From the NCBI GenBank assembly GCA_011391255.1, contig JAABQV010000005.1, positions 62,001 to 126,000 of the forward strand: a stretch of DNA of 64,000 nt, read 5' to 3'. A program made the position numbers and the translations under genes. Below are positions 49,013 to 62,790 of the stretch, in pieces (position 1 is the first letter of the stretch; each line of letters starts with the position of its first letter). This DNA comes from Dechloromonas sp. (GTDB lineage: Bacteria; Pseudomonadota; Gammaproteobacteria; Burkholderiales; Rhodocyclaceae). The notes under the pieces were generated by a model. The model saw only the letters and a program-made list of their open reading frames with translations. It did not search any database and was not told the origin of the DNA.

Positions 49013-49743
49013 AGATGATCTCCCAAGATGGTAACCAGCGCACCATCTCGCGAACGGCGCAGGGCCTCGAGGCCGTAATGGACGAACGACAAGGCGGTGA
49101 GCGCCGGAATCAAAAGGCCAAGCAGTGGAATATGGGCGAGCAGCGCCATGGTCAGGCCGAGCATGAATAGCGGTGTTTTGTGGCGCCGCTTGAGGTCAGC
49201 CCACTCATCCTCGGTGGCGTGCATGGATAGCGCATCGTAGGCGAAGGTGCGGCGGTTCAGCCAGGCCATCAGCAGCATCGGCAGAATCAGCGAGAGGCCG
49301 GGGATCAGCCAGAGGGGCAGGGTAAGCAGCCAGGCGGCGACAAATAAAATCGAGGCTAAAACGCTGTTGACCGTAGCCGCCGTAAAACTGTCGGCACCCA
49401 TCGCTGCAACATCGTGGTATTCGGTCGCGGCGAGGTGTTTCAGCATTAGCGGCAGAATGAGGATGGCGGCGAGTAGCGAAGCGGTCAGGTAGGCGGCGGC
49501 GAAGATTGCCATCCAGCCACCGAGGTAGGCCAGTGCGTAAGCCAGCCAGAGCAGGCCCCAACTGATCAAAAGCGTCATCGGCGGGTAGATCATCATGACT
49601 TCGACCAGCGCGCTGAGGCCCCAGATGGCGAGACCTACGGTTAGCAGCAAGGAAAATAGTGCCGGGATCAGCACGAAGATCCAGATTTTCCCTTGGCGCA
49701 AACTCGATAGCGTGCGTGAGAGGGCGAGCATCACCTCAGCCAT
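49009..49743 (-). CDS. EI24-domain membrane protein
   Basis: 244-residue inner-membrane protein with five to six helices, matching the EI24/CysZ-like family (LRQGKIWIFVLIPALFSLLL; FAYDALSMHATEDEWADL). CysZ members carry sulfate, but many EI24 proteins in betaproteobacteria are uncharacterised. It overlaps the hrpA stop by eight bases. Confidence 0.8.
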   Translation of the reverse strand: MAEVMLALSRTLSSLRQGKIWIFVLIPALFSLLLTVGLAIWGLSALVEVMMIYPPMTLLISWGLLWLAYALAYLGGWMAIFAAAYLTASLLAAILILPLMLKHLAATEYHDVAAMGADSFTAATVNSVLASILFVAAWLLTLPLWLIPGLSLILPMLLMAWLNRRTFAYDALSMHATEDEWADLKRRHKTPLFMLGLTMALLAHIPLLGLLIPALTALSFVHYGLEALRRSRDGALVTILGDHL

Positions 49744-52700
49744 GTTGAATTCCTTCCCATTGTTTTTGCAGGCGCTTGGTCGAGACCGGCGTCGGCGTTT
49801 TTAATTCCTGAGCAAACAGGCTAACGCGTAATTCTTCCAGCAACCAGCGGAACTGGTCAATCTGTGGATCGATTGTGCCCAACTTGGCGAGCTGAATGGC
49901 GCGCCGTTCGTAACTCGTCCACAGCGGCGTGTATTCGGCGAGCAGACGTGCATCACGCGTCGGGTCGCTCTTCAGCTTGTCGAGCCGGACTTGCACCGCC
50001 TTGAGGTAGCGCGGGAAATGTTGCAGGCGCTCGAACGGGGTTTCGGCAATAAATTGTTTGCTGATCAGGCGCTTGATTTGCACCTCAATATCCAGCGTGG
50101 CCGCCGCGTGCACTTTGAAGGGCGGCAGCTTTTTGACCATCGCCTGCCACTCCGTCAGCACGGTACCGACCAGCCGGCAGACCTCCTGCATGATCAGCCC
50201 GAGCCGTGCCTTGCTGTCGCCGCAACGGCTCTTGAAGGCGTTCGGCGTCGTCGGCAACGGCTCGCTGAGGCAGGCGCGCTCGAAAGTCAGGGCGACCAGC
50301 TGGTTTTTGAGATCGTCACTGCTGCCCAGCGCCATGTATTGCATCGCCATCTGGCTGAGGCCGGGGATGTTCTTGTCGAAGTACTTCACCTGGTCGCGAA
50401 ACTGCAGCATGAAAAGACGGAGCAGGCCGGCGCGATGGGCGGCGGCGGCTTCCTCGGCGGAATCGAAAACTTTCAAGCTAACGCTTTCGCCATCGTCGGT
50501 CAGGCCGGGGTAGCCGAGGATGGTTTGCCCCGCCACAGGGACCTCCATCAGCTCCGGCAACTCGCCAAAAGTCCAGTCGGTCAGCTTGGTAAACTCGGAT
50601 GGCGTTTCGTGCAGCTCGGCGAACTCGTCCTTGGCCTGACGCCCCCACTCGCTGCGCAAGGCAACCAGACTGCGCTGCATATCAAGCTGGCGGCCATGCT
50701 CGTCGATCAGCTTGTAGTTCATCGAAAAATGCAAAGGCAGCGCGTCCGGCCGGAAGGCATCCGGCGTCACCGCCCAGCCGCGTGCATTGAGGCCGCGCGC
50801 TTCGAGGATGTGCTCGATCAAGGGCATGATCAACCCCTGATTCAGCTTCTTTTCCTTGCCGGCTACGGTCAACAGGAATTCTTCGACAAAATCCGGTACT
50901 GGCACCAGCTTGGCGCGGATCTTCTGCGGCAGTGTTTTGATCAGCTGAACCAGCTTTTCCTTCAACAAACCCGGCACCAGCCACTCCATACGCAGCACCG
51001 GAATCTGGTTCAGTTGCGCCAGCGGCAGCGTCAGCGTCACGCCGTCGCGCGGCGAGCCCGGCTCGAAGTGGTAGCTCAGCGGGTAATCGACACCACCAAC
51101 TTTGAGGTGATGCGGGAAAGCCTCGGTGGTGACGCCGGCCGCCGAGTGGCGCATCAGATCGTCTTTGGCGAGGAACAGCAGCTTGGCGTTGTCGAGTTCC
51201 GCTGCCTTGCGCCAATGGTCGAAGGTTGCCCCGTTGTGAATGCCTTCGGGAATCAGGTGGTCGTAAAAAGCAAAAATCAGCTCGTCATCGACCAGCACAT
51301 CCTGCCGGCGCTGCTTGTGTTCGAGGTGCTCGATCTCTCGGATCAGCCTTTGGTTGTGCTGAAAGAACGGCCAGCGCTTGGCAAACGCCTCGTCGATTTC
51401 CTCGCTGACCAGCCCCTGGCGGATGAAGATTTCACGCGATTCGGCCGGCGCCATCGGCCCGTAATGGATGCGCCGTTTCGGGTTGATCACCACGCCGTAA
51501 AGCGTCGTCCGCTCCCAGCCGGAAACCTGCATCGCCTTCTTTTCCCAATGGGCATCGAAGTACTGGCGCTTGACAAGGTGAGCGCCCACTTTCTCCAGCC
51601 AGTCCGGTTCAATGCGGGCGACGCAGCGGCCAAAGAGGCGGGTTGTCTCGGTAATCTCGGCCGCCATGATCCACTTGCCAGCCTTCTTTTGCAGCGGTGA
51701 CGACGGGTGAATCAGATAACGAATGCCGCGCGCACCAAGGTAGTAACCGGACTCATCGGCCTTGCAACCAATATTCCCCAAGAGGCCAGCCAGCAGGGCT
51801 TGGTGGATGACATCGTACCTATCCTCCCCTCGCCCCCTCGGGGAGAGGGGCCGGGGGAGAGGGGGGCTTTGAGCATTGTCGCCAATCCGCCCCCTCTCCC
51901 CAGCCCTCTCCCCCGATGCGGGGGCGAGGGAGCAAGTGTCCTCGCCTTTTATCCACCCCAACTCCGCAACCATCGCATGCAACTGCCCATGCACCTCGCG
52001 CCATTCGCGCATGCGCAGGTAGGAGAGGAAATGTGCGTGGCAATTGTCGATCAGCTGCTTGTTCGATTTCTTGTGTTCGACGGCGTTCTGGAACCAGTTC
52101 CACAACTTCCACCAACTGAGGAACTCGGATTTTTCGTCAGCAAACAACTTGTGCTTTTCATCGGCCGCCTGTTGGCGTTCCTGCGGCCGTTCGCGCGGAT
52201 CTTGCGCCGAGAGGCCGGCGGCGATCACCATCATTTCCTTCAAGCAACCCAAATCGCGGGCGGCAACCAGCATGCGGCCAATGCGTGGGTCGAGCGGCAG
52301 TTTGGCCAGCGATTGGCCAATCGGCGTCAGCACATTGTCGTCGTCGAGCGCACCGAGCTCCTGCAACAGCGCGTAGCCGTCGGTGATGGCCTTGGCCGGC
52401 GGCGGCTCGATGAAGGGAAAACTCTCAACATCAGTCAGACGCAGCGACTTCATGCGCAGGATGACGCCGGCCAGGCTGGAGCGGAGGATTTCCGGGTCGG
52501 TGAACGGTGGCCGCGCGTTGAAATCCAGCTCGTCGTACAAGCGGATGCAGACGCCCGCCGCGACCCGGCCGCAACGTCCGGCGCGCTGCCGCGCCGCCGC
52601 CTGCGAGATGCGTTCGATCTGCAACTGCTCAACCTTGTTGCGGTACGAGTAACGCTTGACCCGTGCCAGCCCGGTGTCGATCACGTAGCGGATGCCTGGA

Positions 52701-53791
52701 ACGGTGAGCGAGGTTTCGGCCACGTTGGTCGCCAGCACGATGCGCCGCTGGCCGCCCGAGGGTTTGAAAATGCGATCCTGATCGCCGGCCGAGAGGCGCG
52801 AAAAGAGCGGCAGGATTTCCGGGGCGTGAGCGCTCGACAATCCGGGGCGAGCCAGCGCATGTTTGCGCAAAGCCTCCGCCGCCTCGCGGATTTCACGTTC
52901 ACCGGGCAGGAAAACGAGGATGTCGCCGCTGCCCAGTCGCGCCAGTTCGTCCGCCGCATCGACAATCGCGTCGTAAAGATCGCGCTCGTCATCCTTCTTG
53001 GTGACATCCTCGACCGGCCGGTAACGCACGTCGACCGGGTAGAGCCGGCCGGAGACCTCGATCACCGGCGCGCCGCTGAAGTGTTGCGAAAAGCGCTCGG
53101 CATCAATGGTCGCCGAGGTGATGATGACTTTGAGGTCAGGGCGCTTGGGCAGCAATTGCTTGAGGTAACCGAGCAGGAAATCAATGTTCAGGCTGCGCTC
53201 GTGCGCCTCGTCGATGATGATTGTGTCGTAGGCGCTCAAATACGGGTCGGACTGCGACTCGGCAAGCAGGATGCCGTCGGTCATCAGCTTGACCCAGCTA
53301 TCAGGCGAGCTGCGATCCTGAAAACGGATTTTGACGCCAACGCCACTGCCGACCTGCGTTTTTAGTTCATGCGCCAGCCGCGTGGCGACCGAGCGGGCGG
53401 CGAGCCGGCGCGGCTGTGTATGGCCGATCAGGCCGCGGGCACCGAGGCCGAGCTCAAGACAGATTTTGGGGAGTTGGGTAGTTTTGCCGGAGCCGGTTTC
53501 GCCGCAAACGATCACCACCTGATTGTTCAGAATCAAGTCAGCAATATCGGCTCGGCGCTCATTAACAGGTAAGTCGGGCTGGAAATCCGGCTTCGGCAAT
53601 TTGCCGCGCCGCTCGGCTACCGCCGCCCGCGAGGCGGCGAACAAGGCAGCCAGATCGGCCTGCATTTTTTGCCGCTTTTCCCCGGTTGACCGCGACAACT
53701 CCCGCTGTAAGGCGCGCAAACGCTTGATGTCTCGGGTCAGGCAAAAGTTTTCCGGCGCATCAGCCTGATTGCTGCTCTTTGTAATTTTCAT
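49736..53791 (-). CDS. hrpA: HrpA, DEAH-box RNA helicase
   Basis: Large ATP-dependent helicase (1351 residues) linked in E. coli to rescue of stalled ribosomes and mRNA processing. Walker A GETGSGKT at 98-105, DEAH at 194-197, helicase C motif QRAGRCGR, then HA2, OB and the long HrpA C-terminal domain. Residues about 620-657 ([13 protein letters not shown]-type) come from a palindromic repeat inserted in frame and are absent from the usual family alignment. The start is only four bases after the intI stop and has no strong ribosome site, so expression may depend on transcripts from the integrase side. Confidence 0.95.
51824..51932. repeat. 109-bp palindromic repeat inside hrpA
   Basis: Two C/G-rich arms of about 44 bp (left arm starting CTCCCCTCGCCCCC, right arm ending GGGGGCGAGGGAG) face each other around a ~22-bp centre. 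The element is read through in frame by hrpA and encodes a Pro/Arg/Gly-rich peptide. A shorter relative lies after trpE. Confidence 0.75.
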
Positions 53792-53795
53792 CGCT

Positions 53796-54779
53796 TCAAA
53801 TATCTAACGGGCTAACTACACCTCGGCCGCCACGGTTCAGGACATGCGTGTAAATCATTGTCGTCTGCACATCGGCATGGCCGAGCAATTCCTGCACGGT
53901 ACGAATATCGTAGCCAGACTGCAGCAAATGCGTCGCGAAGGAATGGCGAAACGTATGTGGCGTTGCCAACTTGGCAATACCGCTCGCCATCACCGCCTTC
54001 TTCACCGCCCGCTGCAACAGCTTCTCATCAATATGATGGCGCCGCTCGGTGCCACTTCGAGGATCAATCGAATAACTCCCTGAATTGAAAATGTACTGCC
54101 AGGCCCAGTCGACCGCAGCATTCGGATACTTTCTATCCAGCGCATCGGGTAAATAAACCGACGCCAAGCCCTTGGCGCGATCCTCTTCATACAAGCGCTG
54201 GCGTATTTTAAGGTGCGCCCGCAAAGCTTCAACCAGAGACTGCGGCAACATCGTGACGCGATCCTTGGCGCCCTTTCCATCGCGGATCAAAATCTCAGCC
54301 TGCTCGAAATCGACATCCTTCACCCGTAGGCGAACGCACTCCATCAAGCGCATCCCTGTTCCGTACAGCAAGCGCGCCATCAAGCCATAAACGCCGCTCA
54401 TGGCCTCCAGCACCGAAACCACTTCCTGCCGCGTCAACACCACCGGCAAGCGCTGCGGCGTTTTCGCCCGAACGACATTATCCAGCCAAGGCAGATTGAT
54501 CGCTAAAACCTCGCGATACAAAAACAGCAAGGCCGACAACGCCTGATTTTGGGTTGAAGCCGCCACCCGCCCCTCAACTGCCAAATGCGTCAAAAACGCC
54601 TCAAGCTCAAGAACGCCCATCTCGCGCGGATGCCGCTTGTCATGAAAAATGATGAAGCGGCGAATCCACTGGACATATTGCGTTTCAGTCCGGATACTGT
54701 AATGCTTCAAACGAAGCCGATCACGCACCTGATCAAGGAGCTTCGGCTGCTGCGGGGTTGCAGGTGTCTCGGCGGTCAC
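53796..54779 (-). CDS. intI: integron integrase IntI
   Basis: Tyrosine recombinase of 327 residues. Catalytic residues by eye: Arg144 (GTGMRLME), Lys169-172, His275 and Arg278 ([12 protein letters not shown]), His301 ([10 protein letters not shown]) and Tyr310 (MIYTHVL). The extra patch that marks integron integrases is present between about 203 and 250 ([19 protein letters not shown], then RSGTERRHH). Start is GTG (TAETPATPQ); ribosome site weak, so the true start could differ by a few codons. It appears intact and is transcribed away from the cassettes, as usual. No LexA box was seen upstream. Confidence 0.95.
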
Positions 54780-54884
54780 ACTATTTTTATCCGTGTAAAT
54801 GGAATCAATATGTTAGCAGTTTATTTCAGTTCTTATACACCTGAGCGAGTGGAAGTAGACACCGTTCAAGGTGTCTACTAAACG
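54780..54884. other. attI region
   Basis: Recombination point G|TTATGC after base 54884. Five bases before it ends a perfect 10-bp inverted repeat: AGTAGACACC (54854-54863) and GGTGTCTACT (54870-54879) with loop GTTCAA. No convincing cassette promoter (Pc) was found here; TATACA at 54834 lacks a -35. Confidence 0.75.
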
Positions 54885-54967
54885 TTATGCCTTACATCCG
54901 GCGCCGTCTCACCAGCGCCGACTTTTCGCCAACACCGCCGAGATCGGCATCGTTTAAGGAGTTCAAG

Positions 54968-55333
54968 ATGAGGTTTGCTTCGTTTTTTCTGGTTGCCGTT
55001 GTGCTCGTGACCGCCGTTCCAGCCAACGCAGGCACTTTTGGGGAAGATTGCCGCGCCTACGCAAAGGCTATCTTTGCCGTCGCGGAAGCCCGCGACAACC
55101 TGGATGATCCCTCATGGGAAAAGCTTCTTAAGCTTCACCCAATCTTGGAGGAGATAAAGAAGAAGGAAGGCCGAGGGCTTCTATACGCCCAGATGATCAA
55201 CCTTCGCGTGATCAACAAGAACGCCAGTCCTCGTGCGCTAATGACCAACAGCTACGATAGCTGCATTTCCGGCACTGCTGGTTTCTGCATGCTCTATAAC
55301 CAAGGGTGCGGTCCAAAGGGAGACTCCAAATGA
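54968..55333 (+). CDS. cassette 1: secreted Cys-containing protein
   Basis: 121 residues with a clear signal peptide (cut after VPANA, about residue 21). The mature ~100 residues carry four Cys, one near the start (GEDCRAY) and three near the end (DSCISGTAGFCMLYNQGC), which suggests disulfides in the periplasm. AAGGAG precedes the ATG. Family not recognised. The downstream gene overlaps by four bases, so the cassette is bicistronic. Confidence 0.75.
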   Translation: MRFASFFLVAVVLVTAVPANAGTFGEDCRAYAKAIFAVAEARDNLDDPSWEKLLKLHPILEEIKKKEGRGLLYAQMINLRVINKNASPRALMTNSYDSCISGTAGFCMLYNQGCGPKGDSK

Positions 55334-55527
55334 CAACCGTAACAATCGAAATTCCAGAAATCCCCCACGGCCATGGCCTTTCCTTCAAGAAGGGGATCGC
55401 GGATGGTTTGCTCGACTGCCGGGACCACGAATCAACCCCTCATGAAACTCACTCGGCAAGCTACCAGCGTGGTATTGAGGTTGGCATTGAACTGAAACAC
55501 GAAATTGCCAAACTCGTTAAGGCATAA
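55330..55527 (+). CDS. cassette 1: small protein, unknown
   Basis: 65 residues, acidic/His-rich middle (DCRDHESTPHETHS), no membrane helix or signal peptide. Start overlaps the preceding stop (ATGA), indicating coupled translation. Its TAA stop lies inside the left core of attC1. Not recognised. Confidence 0.6.
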   Translation: MTTVTIEIPEIPHGHGLSFKKGIADGLLDCRDHESTPHETHSASYQRGIEVGIELKHEIAKLVKA

Positions 55528-55585
55528 CCCGGCAGTCCACACGGACGCTGCGCGATAAAGCCGCGCAGCGCCGGTGACTTCTACG
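55522..55585. repeat. attC1 recombination site
   Basis: Left core GCATAAC is the exact complement of GTTATGC at the start of cassette 1. Inner stem CGCTGCGCG / CGCGCAGCG. Right end G before TTAGGC of the next cassette. Contains the shared 26-bp core (55543-55568). Confidence 0.9.
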
Positions 55586-55606
55586 TTAGGCGCCATTATT
55601 CATCAG

Positions 55607-55635
55607 GTGACAAAAGGCACACAAAAGAATAGACT
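55607..55635 (+). promoter_or_regulatory. promoter of the cassette 2 toxin-antitoxin
   Basis: GTGACA (55607-55612), 17 bp, TAGACT (55630-55635). The predicted start point falls on or next to the ATG of the toxin gene, which has no ribosome site, so the message may be leaderless. Confidence 0.5.
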
Positions 55636-55641
55636 TTCTAC

Positions 55642-55935
55642 ATGAAACCATTTCGCTGGAACCACGACAAGAACGAAGTGCTGAAGAAAGATCGCAGCAT
55701 CTCATTTGAAGAAGTGGTGCTTGCGATTGAAGCCAACGGTTTGCTGGATGAGTTACAGCATCCCAATCCCGAGAAATATCCCAACCAATCAGTTCTTGTT
55801 GTGGCACTTGATGGCTACGCCTACTTGGTGCCTTATGTCGAAGAGCAGGACTACTACTTCCTGAAGACCGTCATCCCAAGTAGAAAAGCCACCCGAGACT
55901 ATTTATTGAGGAACCATCCTAATGAAAAAGCTTGA
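55642..55935 (+). CDS. cassette 2: BrnT-like toxin
   Basis: 97 residues. The opening FRWNHDKNEVLKK, then SISFEEVVLAIE, LVVALDGYAYLVPYV and a C-terminal IPSRKATRDYL follow the RelE-fold BrnT pattern, a ribonuclease toxin. Toxin before antitoxin, with a 14-base overlap, is also the BrnTA order. Similarity is moderate; another RelE-like subfamily is possible. Confidence 0.7.
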   Translation: MKPFRWNHDKNEVLKKDRSISFEEVVLAIEANGLLDELQHPNPEKYPNQSVLVVALDGYAYLVPYVEEQDYYFLKTVIPSRKATRDYLLRNHPNEKA

Positions 55936-56245
55936 TCAATTTGAAGAGGATATTCTGTCCGATTACGACAAAGGTGAACTCAAGTCGACTTCGCCTTCAA
56001 AAACCGAACTGGCCAAATTTAAGGCGGCGGCGACGGCCACCTTCATTAAGGACCGTCGTATCAATATCAGGTTATCGTCCCCTGATCTGATGGATATTCA
56101 GGCGCGGGCGTTAGAGGAAGGCATTCCTTACCAGACGTTTATCGCCAGCGTTCTACATAAATTCGCATCCGGCCGACTGATCGAAAAGCCATCCAGCCTA
56201 ACCCCGCGCTCAACCGGACGCGCCGAAAAGCGGCGCGCCGGTTAG
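55922..56245 (+). CDS. cassette 2: CopG/BrnA-like antitoxin
   Basis: 107 residues: acidic N-terminus that would wrap the toxin, then a ribbon-helix-helix DNA-binding part (RRINIRLSSPDLMDIQARA, GIPYQTFIASVLHKF). The last ~15 residues (LTPRSTGRAEKRRAG) are encoded by attC2, where the TAG stop lies, so the tail changes whenever attC varies. Probably autorepresses its operon. Confidence 0.82.
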   Translation: MKKLDQFEEDILSDYDKGELKSTSPSKTELAKFKAAATATFIKDRRINIRLSSPDLMDIQARALEEGIPYQTFIASVLHKFASGRLIEKPSSLTPRSTGRAEKRRAG

Positions 56246-56252
56246 CTCAACG
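56196..56252. repeat. attC2 recombination site
   Basis: Left core GCCTAAC complements GTTAGGC at the start of cassette 2. L-boxes CTCAACCGG and CCGGTTAGCTC, inner stem GCGCCG-type, right end G before TTAGAA. It lacks the 26-bp core of attC1/3/4, so this cassette probably came from another array. Confidence 0.9.
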
Positions 56253-56282
56253 TTAGAAACATGAGCGCAGATCAGTAATCAA

Positions 56283-56567
56283 ATGAAAAAATTGATAATT
56301 TTCGCGATGCTCGTGGCGTTTGGTTGGAACTACTACCAAAAAGGCGCCTCTTCTAGGCAAGCACAAATTCAAATAGAACCTCAAGCCTTTCAGGCGCCAG
56401 TATCTTTAGCTAATCAGCCGACAGAGAGTTTTTCTTGTGACGGTCGGCAACATTGCAGCCAAATGCGCTCAAGAGCAGAAGCCGAATTTTTCCTTAAGAA
56501 CTGTCCAGGCACAAAAATGGATGGCGACAATGACGGGATACCTTGTGAAAACGACTCAAGGTTTTAG
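56283..56567 (+). CDS. cassette 3: Excalibur-domain protein
   Basis: 94 residues: N-terminal membrane or signal helix (KKLIIFAMLVAFGWNYY), a linker, then an Excalibur calcium-binding domain (CDGRQHCSQM, AEFFLKNCPG, and the DxDxDG loop DGDNDGIPCE). Likely exported, with calcium and disulfide-stabilised domain facing outward. Role unknown. Such domains often end nuclease or cold-shock-like proteins, but here the domain stands alone. Confidence 0.82.
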   Translation: MKKLIIFAMLVAFGWNYYQKGASSRQAQIQIEPQAFQAPVSLANQPTESFSCDGRQHCSQMRSRAEAEFFLKNCPGTKMDGDNDGIPCENDSRF

Positions 56568-56587
56568 AGCAAACCTCAGCAGCATGT

Positions 56588-56669
56588 GTCTAACCCGGCG
56601 CTCAACCTCGCTCCCTCCGGTCGCTGGACGCTGCGCGATAAAGCCGCGCAGCGCTGGTGACTTTTAACG
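56588..56669. repeat. attC3 recombination site
   Basis: Left core GTCTAAC matches six of seven bases expected from GTTAGAA. Contains the shared core at 56626-56651 (same bases as in attC1), right end G before TTAGGT. Confidence 0.88.
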
Positions 56670-57071
56670 TTAGGTTTCGAGCAGGGCGGAGCGGAGGCCA
56701 AGATGGTGCACAAACGGATCAAAATCTCGGTCGCTGTAGAGCAAGATGAAACCGCTTTCGATACAGCGGGTGGCAATGACGGTATCGATGGTTTTGCGTA
56801 TGGTGATTCCTTGCCCTCGCAAGATGCGGAAATTCCTCGCTGCTTGAATAGCAACGTCCTGACCGCCAAGCTCAACTATCAGCAAAGATGTCAGCAACCT
56901 CCTGGCTTCGTTGAAATCGCGCTCACTTCCAAATCCCTGAAGCACTTCAGTGAGAATGAGGTCGCCCACGGAAATCGGCTCGCTGCTAAGCAATCTATCA
57001 AGTTTCTCCGTTTGAGGAGACTGCGTGCCCCGAAAGTAGTCAATCCAGACACTCGAATCAACCAAAATCAC
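56670..57071 (-). CDS. vapC: cassette 4: VapC toxin
   Basis: PIN-domain ribonuclease toxin of 133 residues with all acidic residues: Asp5 (LVDSSVW), Glu42 (LTEVLQG), Asp96 (TIDTVIA) and Asp114 (YSDRDF). Read against the cassette direction. Its TAA stop is formed by the first three bases (TTA) of the cassette, so recombination at the boundary also defines the end of the protein. Overlaps vapB by four bases. Confidence 0.92.
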   Translation of the reverse strand: MILVDSSVWIDYFRGTQSPQTEKLDRLLSSEPISVGDLILTEVLQGFGSERDFNEARRLLTSLLIVELGGQDVAIQAARNFRILRGQGITIRKTIDTVIATRCIESGFILLYSDRDFDPFVHHLGLRSALLET

Positions 57072-57262
57072 TTGTCAGTCCTCATCTGTTCCAGATCACC
57101 CTGCCAGTCCAGCTTCCCACGGAAGCCCCGAATCTCTTCTTGCTGGCGTAAATGCAACAAAGTTTGGAGGCCAAGTTCAACCGCTTCACGCTTGGTTTTG
57201 AGGCCAGTCAGGCGGAGTGTTTCGCTCATCAGTTTGTCGTCAATTACGATATTGGTGCGCAT
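57068..57262 (-). CDS. vapB: cassette 4: VapB antitoxin
   Basis: 64-residue antitoxin with a VapB ribbon-helix-helix start (RTNIVIDDKLMSETLRLTG, KREAVELGLQTLL) and a toxin-binding C-terminal tail (GFRGKLDWQGDLEQMR). Would repress the operon through the operator that covers its start. Confidence 0.9.
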   Translation of the reverse strand: MRTNIVIDDKLMSETLRLTGLKTKREAVELGLQTLLHLRQQEEIRGFRGKLDWQGDLEQMRTDK

Positions 57263-57319
57263 AATGTGTATCCTTTATAATATATATACACATTATAGGT
57301 AGTATTTCTTTAATTCGCA
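57261..57319 (-). promoter_or_regulatory. vapBC promoter and operator
   Basis: Perfect 11-bp inverted repeat ATAATGTGTAT (57261-57271) and ATACACATTAT (57286-57296) spans the ribosome site and touches the vapB start codon. On the minus strand TATAAT (57297-57292) follows TTGCGA (57319-57314) with 17 bp between. Confidence 0.8.
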
Positions 57320-57386
57320 ATCTACCCGGCGCTCAACCTCGCCCCTTCGGTCGCCGGACGCTGCGCGATAAAGCCGCGCAGGCCGG
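57320..57386. repeat. attC4, partly eroded
   Basis: Shares the 26-bp core (57356-57381) and CGGCGCTCAACCTCGC left box with attC3. The left core is degenerate (ATCTACC) and the right side is short: CCGG runs straight into TTGGGC, where attC1 and attC3 have an additional ~9 bases, so L' and R' seem merged by a deletion. Confidence 0.75.
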
Positions 57387-57395
57387 TTGGGCGTC

Positions 57396-57650
57396 TCAGT
57401 AGTGAAAACGCAACTGAGCAATCAACAGGTCATCACCTTCAACGCGGTACACCATGCGATGCTCATCTGTTATGCGGCGTGACCAAAAACCCGATAGTGC
57501 ATGTTTCAATGCCTCAGGCTTGCCCACTCCCTCGAAAGGTTCGCGTTGTGTTTCACGAATCAGCTTGTTTATCCGCTCAACCATCCTCCTGTCCTGTTTT
57601 TGCCAGTACAGGTAATCTTCCCATGCCTCCTCTGAGAAAATCAGCTTCAC
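57396..57650 (-). CDS. yoeB: cassette 5: YoeB toxin
   Basis: 84-residue ribosome-dependent mRNA endonuclease of the RelE fold. Length and active site match E. coli YoeB: Glu46, Arg65, His83 and Tyr84 (LSGFWSRRI, DEHRMVYRV, RFHY). Read against the cassette direction; overlaps yefM by four bases. Confidence 0.95.
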   Translation of the reverse strand: MKLIFSEEAWEDYLYWQKQDRRMVERINKLIRETQREPFEGVGKPEALKHALSGFWSRRITDEHRMVYRVEGDDLLIAQLRFHY

Positions 57651-57898
57651 TTTGCCAATTCCCGCTCAACGCCCTTTCCAGCGTTCAGTTGTGCAGCCGC
57701 CGAAAGCAAACGCTTGGCGTTCGCCGGAGTGCGCAAAAGATAAGCTGTTTCCTCAAGCGCTTTGTAATCTTCAAGCGAGAGCATAACCACGGCTTGATCG
57801 CCATTGCGCGTGATAATCAAAGCTTCGTGGTTGTTACAAACCCGATCCATGGTGCTGGCAAGGTTTGCGCGAACAGTGGTGTAAGTCATAGCATCCAT
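57647..57898 (-). CDS. yefM: cassette 5: YefM antitoxin
   Basis: 83-residue Phd/YefM antitoxin (YTTVRANLASTMDRV, ALIITRNGDQAVVMLSLEDY, EETAYLLRTPANAKRLL). Start at the ATG with GGAGG seven bases upstream; the frame extends 12 codons further, into the operator. Confidence 0.93.
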   Translation of the reverse strand: MDAMTYTTVRANLASTMDRVCNNHEALIITRNGDQAVVMLSLEDYKALEETAYLLRTPANAKRLLSAAAQLNAGKGVERELAK

Positions 57899-57911
57899 TT
57901 TTCTGCCTCCA

Positions 57912-57954
57912 GATATGTACGCTTTAATGTACATATCAAACCACTGATTGTCCA
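57912..57954 (-). promoter_or_regulatory. yefM-yoeB promoter and operator
   Basis: GATATGTAC (57912-57920) and GTACATATC (57929-57937) form an inverted repeat carrying the TGTAC(A) core that YefM is known to bind. Minus-strand TGGACA (57954-57949) and TACATT (57931-57926) are 17 bp apart, so the operator covers the -10. Confidence 0.78.
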
Positions 57955-57975
57955 GAGAAAATCAGCTGACACGAC

Positions 57976-57990
57976 GCCCAACGATTAGGG
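57976..57990. repeat. collapsed attC5, end of array
   Basis: GCCCAAC is the exact complement of GTTGGGC at the start of cassette 5, but it is followed at once by GATTAGGG instead of a hairpin. The inner palindrome seems lost, so this cassette could no longer be excised alone. Confidence 0.65.
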
Positions 57991-58048
57991 TTCGATCGTG
58001 TAAATTGGAGACAGAGCGCGGTTTCCCGTCGGGAGGCCGTTTGATTAC

Positions 58049-58273
58049 TTACCCGCCGCGCTTCTTGCTGTAAGTTTTGAACACCGCTTTGGCGTCGCGG
58101 CCGGCGCGCTCAAGGGTACAGATGGCGGGGTCATCATCGTGGCCGCTAAAAAAATCGTCTTCCTGCGCCTGCATCACCATGGCGATTGCCTGCTCGTCAC
58201 GCAGCGCATAGCGCTCCGTGAGTTGCGTGGTGACTTCGTCGAGGTGTTCTTCGTAAGTCATATGGGCGGACAT
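58049..58273 (-). CDS. small acidic protein, unknown
   Basis: 74 residues (MTYEEHLDEVTTQLTERY, DDFFSGHDDDPAIC), no membrane segment. Not recognised. 15 bases after the next gene, so likely one operon with it. No clear ribosome site; a second ATG four codons in is possible. Confidence 0.55.
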   Translation of the reverse strand: MSAHMTYEEHLDEVTTQLTERYALRDEQAIAMVMQAQEDDFFSGHDDDPAICTLERAGRDAKAVFKTYSKKRGG

Positions 58274-58288
58274 GGCTGAGTGGTTGCC

Positions 58289-58573
58289 TTAGTGGGCAGC
58301 TTTTTTCTCGTTGGCCAGCGCGGTTTCGGCGATCTCGCGATAGAGCGAGGCGACTTGGCCGGCCAGTTGTTCAAATTCCGGATGACGTTGCAGCATCGGC
58401 ATGGCTTGTAGCGAGTCAGTCAGCAGTTCCTGCATGAAGGCGAGGTCAAATTCGTCGAAGACTTCGCCCTGGTCAACTTTGGCTTTGAGCGCCAGCGCAC
58501 GCGGTAGGCGTTGTGATTCGAAACGCTCCATCAAAACTGCCAAAACGCCTTTTTCGTCTTCCATGTTGCTCAT
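58289..58573 (-). CDS. small helical protein, unknown
   Basis: 94 residues, predicted helical, with FDEFDLAFMQELLTDSLQ and a Lys-rich end. Good ribosome site (AAGGAG, seven bases). Similar proteins occur in other betaproteobacteria as hypothetical, to my memory. Same strand as DUF779 and the aldehyde dehydrogenase. Confidence 0.65.
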   Translation of the reverse strand: MSNMEDEKGVLAVLMERFESQRLPRALALKAKVDQGEVFDEFDLAFMQELLTDSLQAMPMLQRHPEFEQLAGQVASLYREIAETALANEKKAAH

Positions 58574-58630
58574 TTGTTGTCTCCTTGTTTAGGTCTCAGT
58601 AGCAAGAGTTTATCACCAGCTGAAAGCGCA

Positions 58631-58996
58631 CTATGGCGCCGTCTTGGCTAGTTCTTCCAGTTCTTGTGCGGTGAATACCCGGGAACGGGTATGAAAGGCC
58701 TTGCCTTCCGAGCCTTCCAGCGAAAACGTGCCGCCGTGACCATCAATGACGTCGATGATCAGTTGCGTGTGTTTCCAGGTTTCAAACTGCGATTTGCTCA
58801 TGTAAAACGGCACACCGCCGATGTCGCCAAGGTGGACGTCGCCCTGGCCGATGGTCAGATCGGTGGGCAGGTAGCAGTTGGCGGCGCTGTTGTCGCAGCA
58901 GCCGCCGGATTGGTGAAACATCACTTCGCCGTACTGGCCTTGCAGTTTCTTGATCAGCTCGAGCGCAGCGGGGGTGGCAATGACGCGGTCAACCAT
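58631..58996 (-). CDS. DUF779 protein
   Basis: 121 residues with a Cys-rich patch (QSGGCCDNSAANCY) and GDVHLGDIGGVPFYM. DUF779 genes regularly sit beside aldehyde dehydrogenases of the ExaC/AldB group, as here; a role in metal or aldehyde handling is speculative. AAGGAG precedes the ATG. Confidence 0.88.
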   Translation of the reverse strand: MVDRVIATPAALELIKKLQGQYGEVMFHQSGGCCDNSAANCYLPTDLTIGQGDVHLGDIGGVPFYMSKSQFETWKHTQLIIDVIDGHGGTFSLEGSEGKAFHTRSRVFTAQELEELAKTAP

Positions 58997-59076
58997 GATT
59001 TCTCCTTGAAAAAACGGGGCGGTTGCCCGCCCCGGAAAGTGTTACCCGAAGGTGCCCAGAGAACCCGTTAAATCAA

Positions 59077-60597
<1,521 letters not shown>

Positions 60598-60656
60598 TTT
60601 TGTCTCCGATATTTTTACGAATGAGTGAATGAGTTACCCGAAGGGTGGTACTCCTT

Positions 60657-60673
60657 ATCAAGCCCCGTGCCAG
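60657..60673 (-). promoter_or_regulatory. sigma-54-type promoter of aldehyde dehydrogenase
   Basis: On the minus strand CTGGCACG, four bases, TTGAT: matches the TGGCACG-N4-TTGC consensus except for one base, with correct spacing. Fits control by the divergent AcoR-type activator. Confidence 0.75.
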
Positions 60674-60745
60674 CCCAGAAAATGCTCGCTATCTATATGA
60701 TTTAAATAATTTGTGCCAAAAACTGCCGTTGACCGTAACAGGTGC

Positions 60746-60785
60746 TGTGACGTTGCGTTCCGCGACAGTTGTCACAAAATGGAAC
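60746..60785. promoter_or_regulatory. interleaved dyads, candidate activator sites
   Basis: TGTGAC (60746-60751) with GTCACA (60771-60776), and GTTCC (60757-60761) with GGAAC (60781-60785), both with 19 bases between arms. They lie ~75-110 bp upstream of the sigma-54 element, a normal enhancer distance. Confidence 0.45.
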
Positions 60786-60882
60786 ACTTGAGCGTGCGCT
60801 AGCCTAATTAGCCTTGGCGCGCTCCGCTTAAAGCCTATACTCGGCAAAAAACGGGCAACGACCCGGCGAGGAGATGAGACAA

Positions 60883-62790
60883 ATGCGCACCCACACCCCG
60901 GCAGCGGCGCCGCTATTGCGCCAGGCGCGGAACAAATTGCTTGAAGACGGCGATTTCCCCGCCGGGCATATCGACGAACGGCTGGCTCGTTCATGGCGGC
61001 GCAGTCTGGCGGCGGGGCTCTCGCCGACCGAGCGGCTTTCCAACGTCGATAATCTTTCCGGTTCCCAACTACAACGCTCGCTGGCGCGCAATCACGATCT
61101 GGTGAGCCACTCGCGGCCGGTGATGGAATACCTCTTCGAGCAGGTGCGGCAAAGTCAGAGCATGGTCATCCTCGCCGATAATCGTGGTGTCCTCATGCAT
61201 ACGCTCGGCGATGTCGATTTTCTTGGCAAGGCCGAGCGCGTTGCCTTGATGTCCGGCGCCAGCTGGCACGAGCAGCAGCGCGGCACCAACGCCATCGGTA
61301 CGGCGCTGGCCGAGGCCGCCGGTGTCGAAATTCACGGCTCCGAACATTATCTGGAGCGCAACGGTTTCCTGACCTGTGCCGCCGCCCCCATCGTCTCGGC
61401 GACCGGCGAACTGCTCGGCGTTCTCGATATTTCCGGCGACCAGCGCAGCCGGCATCCGCACACCTCCGGGTTAGTCAATACGGCGGCGCGGATGATTGAA
61501 AACCGGCTGGTGCTGGCCGCCAGCCAGCGCCAGATTCGCCTGCATCTGCATGCCCAGCCGGAAGGTATTGGCAGCGTCGTTGAGGGCATCGTCGCACTTT
61601 CCGAGGATGGCTGGATCGTCGGCGCCAACCGCCAGGGTTTGGCCTACCTCGGGCTGGCTGCGGTCGACATCGGCGCGACGCCGATTTTTCGCGTGCTCGA
61701 TGTTCGGCTTGAACAAATTTTGGCCCGTTTTCAGCGTCGACCGCAACAGCCCATACTGCTGCATCGCCACGACGGCATGGCGATATATGCGCAGGTTCAT
61801 GCCGAATTCAAGACGCCCGTCGCGGTACAGCGCCTGCCGGAAAAGCCGGCGCAAGATGCGCTAAGTAAACTCGATACCGGTGATATTCGTTGGTCGGCCG
61901 CCGCGGGCAAGGCGCGACGCATCGCCGGCAAGCCGATTCCGCTGTTACTACTTGGCGAGTCCGGTGTCGGCAAGGAGTTGTTTGCGCGCGCCGTCCATGA
62001 GTCGTCGCCACAGAAAAATGGCCCATTTGTTGCCATCAACTGCGCCGCCTTGCCGGAGAATCTGATTGAGGCTGAACTCTTCGGTTACAGCGCCGGCGCC
62101 TTCACCGGGGCGGCGAAAGAGGGGCGCCCCGGCCGCCTGCGTGAGGCCGAGGGTGGCACGCTGTTTCTTGATGAGATCGGTGACATGCCGCTGACCATGC
62201 AGACCCGTCTCCTGCGCGTCTTGCAGGAACGCCAGGTGACGCCGCTGGGTGGCGGCCAGTCGGTCAGCGTAAATTTTTCGCTGATCTGTGCGACGCACAG
62301 CAACTTGCGCGAAGCCGCCGAAGCCGGGCGCTTCCGTAGCGATCTCTATTACCGGATCAACGGCCTGACGCTCAATTTGCCGGCCTTGCGCGAGCGCAGC
62401 GATTTTGTTCCGCTGGTCGAAAAACTGCTTGATGAACTCTTTCCGGATGGTCATCTGCATTTGGCACCGGAACTGTTGACGCGGCTGGCAGCCTACCGCT
62501 GGCCGGGTAATCTGCGCCAGCTGGCAAGCGTTTTGCGCACCGCCGTGGCAATGCTCGATTCTGATGAAACGAGAATTGACTGGCCGCACCTGCCCGACGA
62601 TCTGCTTGATGAGTTGAGCAAGGCCCCGGTCAAGCCGGCTTCAGTGGTCGCTGCGCAAAATCTAGATGAGCGCTCGCGTCAGGCCATTCACGAAACCCTG
62701 GAAGACTGTCGCGGGAATGTTTCAGAAGCCGCGCGCCGCCTCGGGATCAGCCGTCAGACCATGTATCGAAAGCTGAAAAATCAGGACTGA
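60883..62790 (+). CDS. AcoR-type sigma-54 activator
   Basis: 635 residues: GAF-like sensor region (about 70-200), an AAA+ core with Walker A GESGVGKE near 358-365, GAFTGA at 405-410 that touches sigma-54 and Walker B GGTLFLDEIGD, and a Fis-type helix-turn-helix at the end (NVSEAARRLGISRQTMYRKL). I take the second ATG (nine bases after GGAG); the first lies directly on the ribosome site. Probably activates the divergent aldehyde dehydrogenase genes. Confidence 0.9.
   Translation: MRTHTPAAAPLLRQARNKLLEDGDFPAGHIDERLARSWRRSLAAGLSPTERLSNVDNLSGSQLQRSLARNHDLVSHSRPVMEYLFEQVRQSQSMVILADNRGVLMHTLGDVDFLGKAERVALMSGASWHEQQRGTNAIGTALAEAAGVEIHGSEHYLERNGFLTCAAAPIVSATGELLGVLDISGDQRSRHPHTSGLVNTAARMIENRLVLAASQRQIRLHLHAQPEGIGSVVEGIVALSEDGWIVGANRQGLAYLGLAAVDIGATPIFRVLDVRLEQILARFQRRPQQPILLHRHDGMAIYAQVHAEFKTPVAVQRLPEKPAQDALSKLDTGDIRWSAAAGKARRIAGKPIPLLLLGESGVGKELFARAVHESSPQKNGPFVAINCAALPENLIEAELFGYSAGAFTGAAKEGRPGRLREAEGGTLFLDEIGDMPLTMQTRLLRVLQERQVTPLGGGQSVSVNFSLICATHSNLREAAEAGRFRSDLYYRINGLTLNLPALRERSDFVPLVEKLLDELFPDGHLHLAPELLTRLAAYRWPGNLRQLASVLRTAVAMLDSDETRIDWPHLPDDLLDELSKAPVKPASVVAAQNLDERSRQAIHETLEDCRGNVSEAARRLGISRQTMYRKLKNQD

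Follow-up and report, generated by a model that had tools for sequence, protein, structure and literature searches.

The DNA analysed here is a stretch of 64,000 nucleotides (hereafter the window) from Dechloromonas sp. (assembly GCA_011391255.1, contig JAABQV010000005.1, positions 62,001 to 126,000 of the forward strand), part of a betaproteobacterial chromosome in a Dechloromonas-type genome. It holds an integron flanked by hrpA on the left and by a pair of short chromosomal genes, orf74 and orf94, on the right; the integron consists of an integrase gene (intI), an attI site and five gene cassettes (Table 1). The integron is real, well formed and of an already known type, and it is rich in toxin-antitoxin (TA) genes, with pairs of TA families in three of its five cassettes (2, 4, and 5).

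The intI frame contains no internal stop codon. Its product exceeds the cut-off of TIGR02249, the integron integrase family (495 vs 265 bits), and residues 15-325 align with the structure of V. cholerae IntI. Thus, an integron-type tyrosine integrase is encoded at this locus, and the sequence-only reading that had first drawn attention to the array was right to call it intact. The stop codon of intI lies 4 bp from the start codon of hrpA, and no LexA box within one mismatch of the consensus was found at the window intI. Next to intI is an attI site with a G/TT core. In all 13 relatives picked for alignment, the ATACACC box and the 9-bp inverted repeat of this site are recognisable with some base changes, and in nearly all of these relatives a CGTT core comes next, which bears out the attI junction that had been proposed.

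The attC sites were scored with a covariance model (R1) trained on 25 short-form attC of relatives, none of them from the window. The training loci were found by blastn-short with the window attC, so the model is independent of the window in sequence and not in choice, and it was restricted to short-form sites because MAFFT put the R'' box of long-form attC in the wrong place. R1 matched attC1, attC2 and attC3 from end to end. The match at attC3 begins at an alternative R'' (56600), and a start of its R'' at 56588 is more likely. At attC4, only the central hairpin was matched, equally with filters on or off. Inspected by eye, this site has lost one A of the TAAC in R'' and its entire L' box, CCGGTT standing directly against GGGCGTC, and has retained the central hairpin. 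No R1 match was obtained at attC5. The start of cassette 5, GTTGGGCGTC (57386-57395), is the perfect inverse of its end, GACGCCCAAC, and neither has a second copy on the window's plus strand; this identifies cassette 5 as a real cassette. The sequence following its end, GATTAGGG, does not constitute an attC. The cassettes are thus bounded by foldable attC sites that share one orientation, with attC1-3 complete, attC4 partial and attC5 without a model match. To speak of five attC-bounded cassettes, as the earlier account did, was an overstatement for the last two sites, and its observation that the distal attC are eroded is correct.

Elsewhere in the window's own genome (G000), one isolated attC was found (contig C47:5400-5466, 51.6 bits with R1, among the best 150 of 3056 first-look candidates). 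A search of 12 kb of the window (50000-62000) with Rfam at E values up to 1 placed no family on any attC, all 29 matches being chance-like and located on a palindrome inside hrpA. This long palindromic repeat (51837-51917) is in frame within hrpA, encodes an SPRGRGE-type peptide, and draws chance microRNA matches in Rfam. Two pattern scans for attC were discarded: a strict RYYYAAC/GTTRRRY scan was too narrow, finding pairs at attC3 and attC4 only, and a loose core-pairing scan gave excess noise.

Table 1. Features of the integron and its flanks in window coordinates, with related loci.
Feature	Position	Strand	Description
hrpA, DEAH helicase	49736..53791	minus	left chromosomal flank
intI, integron integrase	53796..54779	minus	327 aa, GTG start; TIGR02249 495 bits; PDB 2a3v 318 bits
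attI	54833..54890	plus	TTATACACC box; inverted repeat GTAGACACC-N6-GGTGTCTAC (54855-54878); core G/TT at 54884
Cassette 1	54885..55585	plus	secreted-type protein (54965-55333; signal-like N-terminus by eye) and 65-aa open reading frame (55330-55527)
attC1, complete	55522..55591	plus	R1 87.2 bits, E 2.7e-22
Cassette 2	55586..56252	plus	BrnT-like toxin (55642-55935) and CopG-type antitoxin (55922-56245), sense orientation
attC2, complete	56196..56258	plus	R1 66.4 bits
Cassette 3	56253..56669	plus	Excalibur-domain protein (56283-56567); PF05901 44.3 bits
attC3, long form, complete	56588..56675	plus	R1 51.9 bits; model match 56600-56675
Cassette 4	56670..57386	plus	VapC (56670-57071, minus) and VapB (57068-57262, minus), antisense to array; promoter-like site 57320-57292
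attC4, eroded	57320..57392	plus	R1 39.7 bits, central hairpin only, 57354-57386, model positions 19-52
Cassette 5	57387..57982	plus	YoeB (57396-57650, minus) and YefM (57647-57898, minus), antisense to array; TGTAC palindrome 57915-57934
attC5 remnant	57973..57982	plus	R'' box GACGCCCAAC only; hairpin and R' lost
orf74 and orf94, short chromosomal genes	58049..58573	minus	right flank
Loci with integrase by hrpA or related helicase	window 53791-54779; L081, L082, L083, L090, L092, L097, L189, L198, L225, L234, L135, L153, L157, L160

The three TA assignments made in the sequence-only reading differ in strength. In cassette 4, a PIN-domain VapC is adjacent to VapB (NF047959, 167 bits; PF01850 for VapC/PIN, 43 bits; PF09957 for VapB, 62 bits), and in cassette 5 a YoeB toxin is adjacent to a Phd/YefM antitoxin (PF06769, 135 bits, and TIGR02116, 119 bits, for YoeB; PF02604, 84 bits, for YefM), so that VapBC and YefM-YoeB are recognised at the level of families. 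The BrnT-like protein of cassette 2 falls below the curated Pfam cut-off (20.5 vs 34.5 bits) and does not qualify as part of a BrnT-BrnA pair on that score; for a profile of four BrnT-like homologues, the best match is a PDB chain named 'toxin' (E = 0.18). Beside this small toxin-like open reading frame (ORF) there is a CopG-type antitoxin, marginally supported (PF12441, 28.5 bits vs a cut-off of 28). Proteins 67-82% identical to the BrnT-like one occur in three other attC-linked loci, and the BrnT-like/CopG pairing is retained in L135, L159 and L280. No Pfam family matched the proteins of cassette 1, and PADLOC gave no match for the nine cassette ORFs submitted to it. Promoter-like sites precede vapB and yefM, their count in the region being near chance (4 found vs 2.6 expected). 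A palindrome, ATGTACGCTTTAATGTACAT (57915-57934), overlaps the initial codons of the YefM ORF starting at 57934, and similar palindromes precede yefM in 11 of 16 relatives (four stretches begin beyond that point, and the G022 copy is degraded); the start of YefM is therefore probably 57898.

The TA content of the window array was compared with that of other arrays by scanning all ORFs with Pfam, because greedy ORF picking can miss antisense TA pairs. The scan covered every ORF of at least 55 aa in the genus arrays and most ORFs of at least 60 aa elsewhere, minus those mostly inside an ORF 2.5 times longer. The family tables give the best 25 of 27 families for the hrpA loci of the genus and the best 25 of 44, 46 and 33 for 28 further arrays described below, so the TA counts are lower bounds. 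Among 41 attC-bounded cassettes in eight arrays at the hrpA locus (G017 included), a single TA pair was found, the YefM-YoeB of G017, and no toxin was found in the 17 cassettes of four genus arrays at other loci. The resulting TA frequency of 1 in 58 cassettes from twelve relatives' arrays is much lower than 3 in 5 in the window (p = 0.001, Fisher's exact test), as is that of at most 2 in 177 cassettes from 15 nearly closed genomes (p = 1e-4), both tests being post hoc since the window array was chosen for its TA richness, and both samples excluding seven TA-bearing attC clusters found later by a YoeB search. With this reservation, TA cassettes do dominate the five-cassette array, as had been claimed.

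Outside the genus, the excess over small arrays is marginal. Thirteen complete arrays of five or fewer attC (a set without L103, L124, L131, L143, L146, L177 and L178, which are duplicates of genus loci or have odd attC orientation) gave four toxin hits in 30 cassettes (p = 0.04 vs 3 in 5, likewise post hoc). Another 28 arrays, 27 of which had under 3 kb of sequence past their final attC, comprised 118 cassettes and yielded a minimum of four toxin hits (one HigB, three BrnT) together with some antitoxin families. These figures lend some weight to chance as an explanation, under which three TA cassettes were captured at random, the distal attC decayed neutrally, and TA had no role in persistence. 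At the rate of the 13 small arrays, three or more TA cassettes among five would arise with a probability of 0.02; the array was selected for being unusual; and TA pairs are among the commonest cassette functions, including BrnT/BrnA and YoeB/YefM, according to passages of two surveys (PMC7370490, PMC8618304). The low TA rate in the genus samples argues against chance, as does a positional bias of YefM-YoeB in other genus arrays (see below), and we regard this explanation as unlikely.

The hrpA locus of relatives allows the history of the array to be considered. Counting the source genome of the window, HrpA is present in 72 of 76 genomes in this genus, and the locus was surveyed in 70 of the 71 relatives (G072 left out), with 4 of the 70 stretches too short to tell. 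An integrase lies next to hrpA in 10 of the 70, near full length in nine and as a fragment in one. The attC counts at this locus are 11 in G005, 10 in G097, 5 in G024 (one weak) and 4 in G071; where the contig ends, they are at least 7 in G090, 2 in G082 and 1 in G007. Since uncut arrays of relatives thus hold 4-11 attC, five cassettes are not a small remnant at this locus, and the proposal that most cassettes had been lost from the window array found no backing, nothing indicating a longer former array. The right flank is also shared in part: orf94 is near hrpA in several relatives and is accompanied by orf74 in G017. An integrase directly upstream of hrpA was seen in one Accumulibacter and another Rhodocyclaceae contig as well, and in two Geobacter contigs an integrase precedes a helicase of 36-37% identity. 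Literature searches for integrons together with hrpA turned up only apparently unrelated titles.

The sequence-only reading suggested that TA cassettes kept the array in place after most cassettes were lost. As a scenario, this would mean that a long array shrank until its TA cassettes halted the final loss, stabilising the remainder by post-segregational killing. The TA fraction in excess of the genus samples would fit this scenario, and so would the distal-most position of YefM-YoeB. The hrpA locus of G017 would fit as well: it lacks an integrase, and its single detected attC relic (29.7 bits; L085:1479-2211) is preceded by a YefM-YoeB pair different from that of the window. An apparent C-terminal remnant of a second toxin was seen by eye at the same G017 locus. 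The G017 relic is also in keeping with the explanation favoured below. Stabilisation of the V. cholerae superintegron by TA is reported in the portions of PMC11551772 and PMC11023631 that concern it. The scenario is weakened by the 4-11 attC of uncut arrays and by the attC relics without recognisable TA that are the rule in the 15 nearly closed genomes (see below). Furthermore, a TA unit should guard itself and the DNA between TA units, and the proximal cassettes would still be singly exchangeable. We consider arrest of a shrinking array by TA to be distinctly improbable.

The YefM-YoeB unit of cassette 5 recurs in the genus and was used to follow its position and the state of its attC. YoeB proteins of at least 83% identity are present in 16 relatives, the copy in G022 containing an in-frame stop. 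An attC was detected by the model in the fetched flank of 7 of the 16, and in three more (G071, G075 and G092) half of an attC was picked up immediately ahead of the stop codon of yoeB (p < 0.05, corrected for position and not for the number of loci), which gives attC traces in 10 of 16 in varied states of decay. The attC belonging to the unit itself is preserved in full in G003 and G026 and in part in G010, G014 and G075; in G006, G096 and G034 it cannot be recognised, and in the window it is reduced to R''. In six of eight attC-linked arrays (window, G006, G010, G026, G034 and G096; not G003 and G014), YefM-YoeB is the last recognisable cassette, versus 1.8 expected (P = 0.001). The bias persists when the window is excluded (5 of 7, P = 0.005) and when G034 is excluded as well (4 of 6, P = 0.009), the test being conservative in that arrays are cut at contig ends and generous in that distal attC decay. 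This distal position beside eroded attC speaks for the earlier proposal to the extent that TA cassettes may be retained for long at the distal end; that they are the cause of persistence of the whole array is not supported. Integrase matches in G026 and G006 are broken pieces, and the G003 cluster also holds a BrnT-like/CopG cassette (82% and 86%). In G034 (L299:6027-6683), a VapBC pair (VapC 77%, VapB 84%) was noticed directly following a lone attC; the stretch past the pair contains no further attC.

Taken together, these observations are best explained by an ordinary betaproteobacterial sedentary chromosomal integron, whose TA excess probably reflects capture from a pool plus better distal retention of TA units. 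IntI would still be able to insert cassettes at attI and to excise cassettes 1-3. One-by-one excision of cassettes 4 and 5 should no longer be possible, because attC4 lacks its L' box and attC5 its hairpin and R'. The loss of L' in attC4 would fit a deletion that removed roughly 11 nt from between a pair of GTT triplets, and attC5 resembles a fusion of R'' to R' at a CAAC repeat, with a single extra base, as a deletion between two CAAC repeats might produce. VapBC and YefM-YoeB would be transcribed from their own promoters against the direction of the array. The TA excess would most likely stem from capture out of a pool of circulating cassettes that includes these TA units, with better retention of such units at the old, distal end of the array. 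Because losing an expressed pair by excision or deletion would harm the cell, a TA unit should last until its attC has decayed and it has become a plain chromosomal gene pair. TA cassettes may thus be unusually long-lived distal residents, and TA most likely accounts for the survival of these particular cassettes and not demonstrably for that of the whole array.

The altered attC4 could also have arisen in another way, if cassette 5 had been inserted at a secondary site within attC4 rather than by recombination of attC with attI, leaving a single usable site from the start. The direct junction of CCGGTT with GGGCGTC without L', and an R' rebuilt at a GTT other than the original one, would be compatible with such an event, and insertion that leaves one recombination site is described in a passage of PMC2426708. 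The displaced L'-R' remainder of attC4 would then be expected beyond cassette 5, where it is not seen, and the R'' of attC4 is also damaged in a decay-like manner. Secondary-site insertion is therefore very unlikely.

The attC content of 15 nearly closed genomes of the genus (a set including G020, 86% complete, and G063, in two contigs) provides a wider view of cassette retention. With R1 at E 1e-5, at least 135 attC in 75 clusters were found, 44 of them single, and a looser search on the fetched stretches (L300-L374) delimited the 177 cassettes mentioned above and left 32 clusters with a single attC; the genome-wide searches scored the best 66 or best 150 first-look candidates per genome, so the attC counts are lower bounds. 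An integrase match lies inside 13 of the 75 stretches, and two others have one at a distance of 1 kb or less; the remaining 60 clusters are without an integron integrase at that range, one of them lying about 6 kb from an integrase to whose array it may belong. Stray cassettes are thus a normal part of the chromosomes of this genus. Such relics persist without recognisable TA pairs, almost none being found, and this weighs against TA having kept the window array in place; decay of attC should by itself suffice to pin cassettes 4 and 5.

Several of our results also weigh against distal retention of TA units. Among 215 short paired ORFs (neighbours of 55-150 aa) in or just past the cassettes of the 15 genomes, Pfam recognised one Phd/YefM-type antitoxin, one HTH_3 protein and no toxin family, a filter that in a control recovered 27 of 29 known TA genes and missed two YoeB, one with an in-frame stop. 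Hence, TA-based retention is not general in the genus. In 6 of the 16 relatives with YoeB, no attC trace was detected at p < 0.05, and these six may be plain chromosomal TA loci. In addition, a cassette with a decayed attC counts as the last one by construction, and insertion at attI places older cassettes distally in any case.

Capture combined with distal retention could be extended to a more general idea, in which TA cassettes are terminal anchors outliving their arrays: they would shift to the distal end, become inexcisable without harm, lose their attC, and end as chromosomal TA pairs. This extension is tentative, and we think it somewhat doubtful. If it were true, integrons would be a regular route to chromosomal TA loci and the window would show the penultimate step. 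The YefM-YoeB series, spanning 17 genomes of one genus, offers material for the idea. If TA units are retained distally while attC decay, such arrays would provide a natural record of integrons becoming fixed chromosomal genes and an origin for stray TA loci in chromosomes. Taken on its own, the window contains an ordinary small chromosomal integron.

In a Sci Adv 2024 study, TA cassettes reportedly govern recombination in chromosomal integrons. In our literature searches on Dechloromonas integrons, TA and integron stability, TA cassettes, array size, and attC clusters with TA, none of the titles listed dealt with TA cassettes in the role of distal anchors, which is not proof of absence. A symE toxin gene is present in over half of X. 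campestris arrays, as stated in a portion of PMC12444791. The chromosomal integrons of Dechloromonas aromatica, of the same genus, and Methylobacillus flagellatus (PMC2426708) resemble that of the window in having an integrase and a chromosomal cassette array; the passages describing them name efflux, protein-folding and other genes and no TA, in contrast to three of five cassettes here. The V. cholerae superintegron, as described in parts of PMC11023631 and PMC11551772, likewise contains TA cassettes within a chromosomal integron. It comprises 179 cassettes with 19 TA scattered among them, whereas the window has five cassettes with TA in the second, fourth and fifth, and two decayed distal attC. 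Finally, CALIN elements (attC clusters without an integrase), known from Xanthomonas according to a section of PMC12444791 and found here in Dechloromonas, are similar in that cassettes are left in the chromosome, and some of those in the genus carry YefM-YoeB. The window differs from them in retaining an intact integrase frame and attI.

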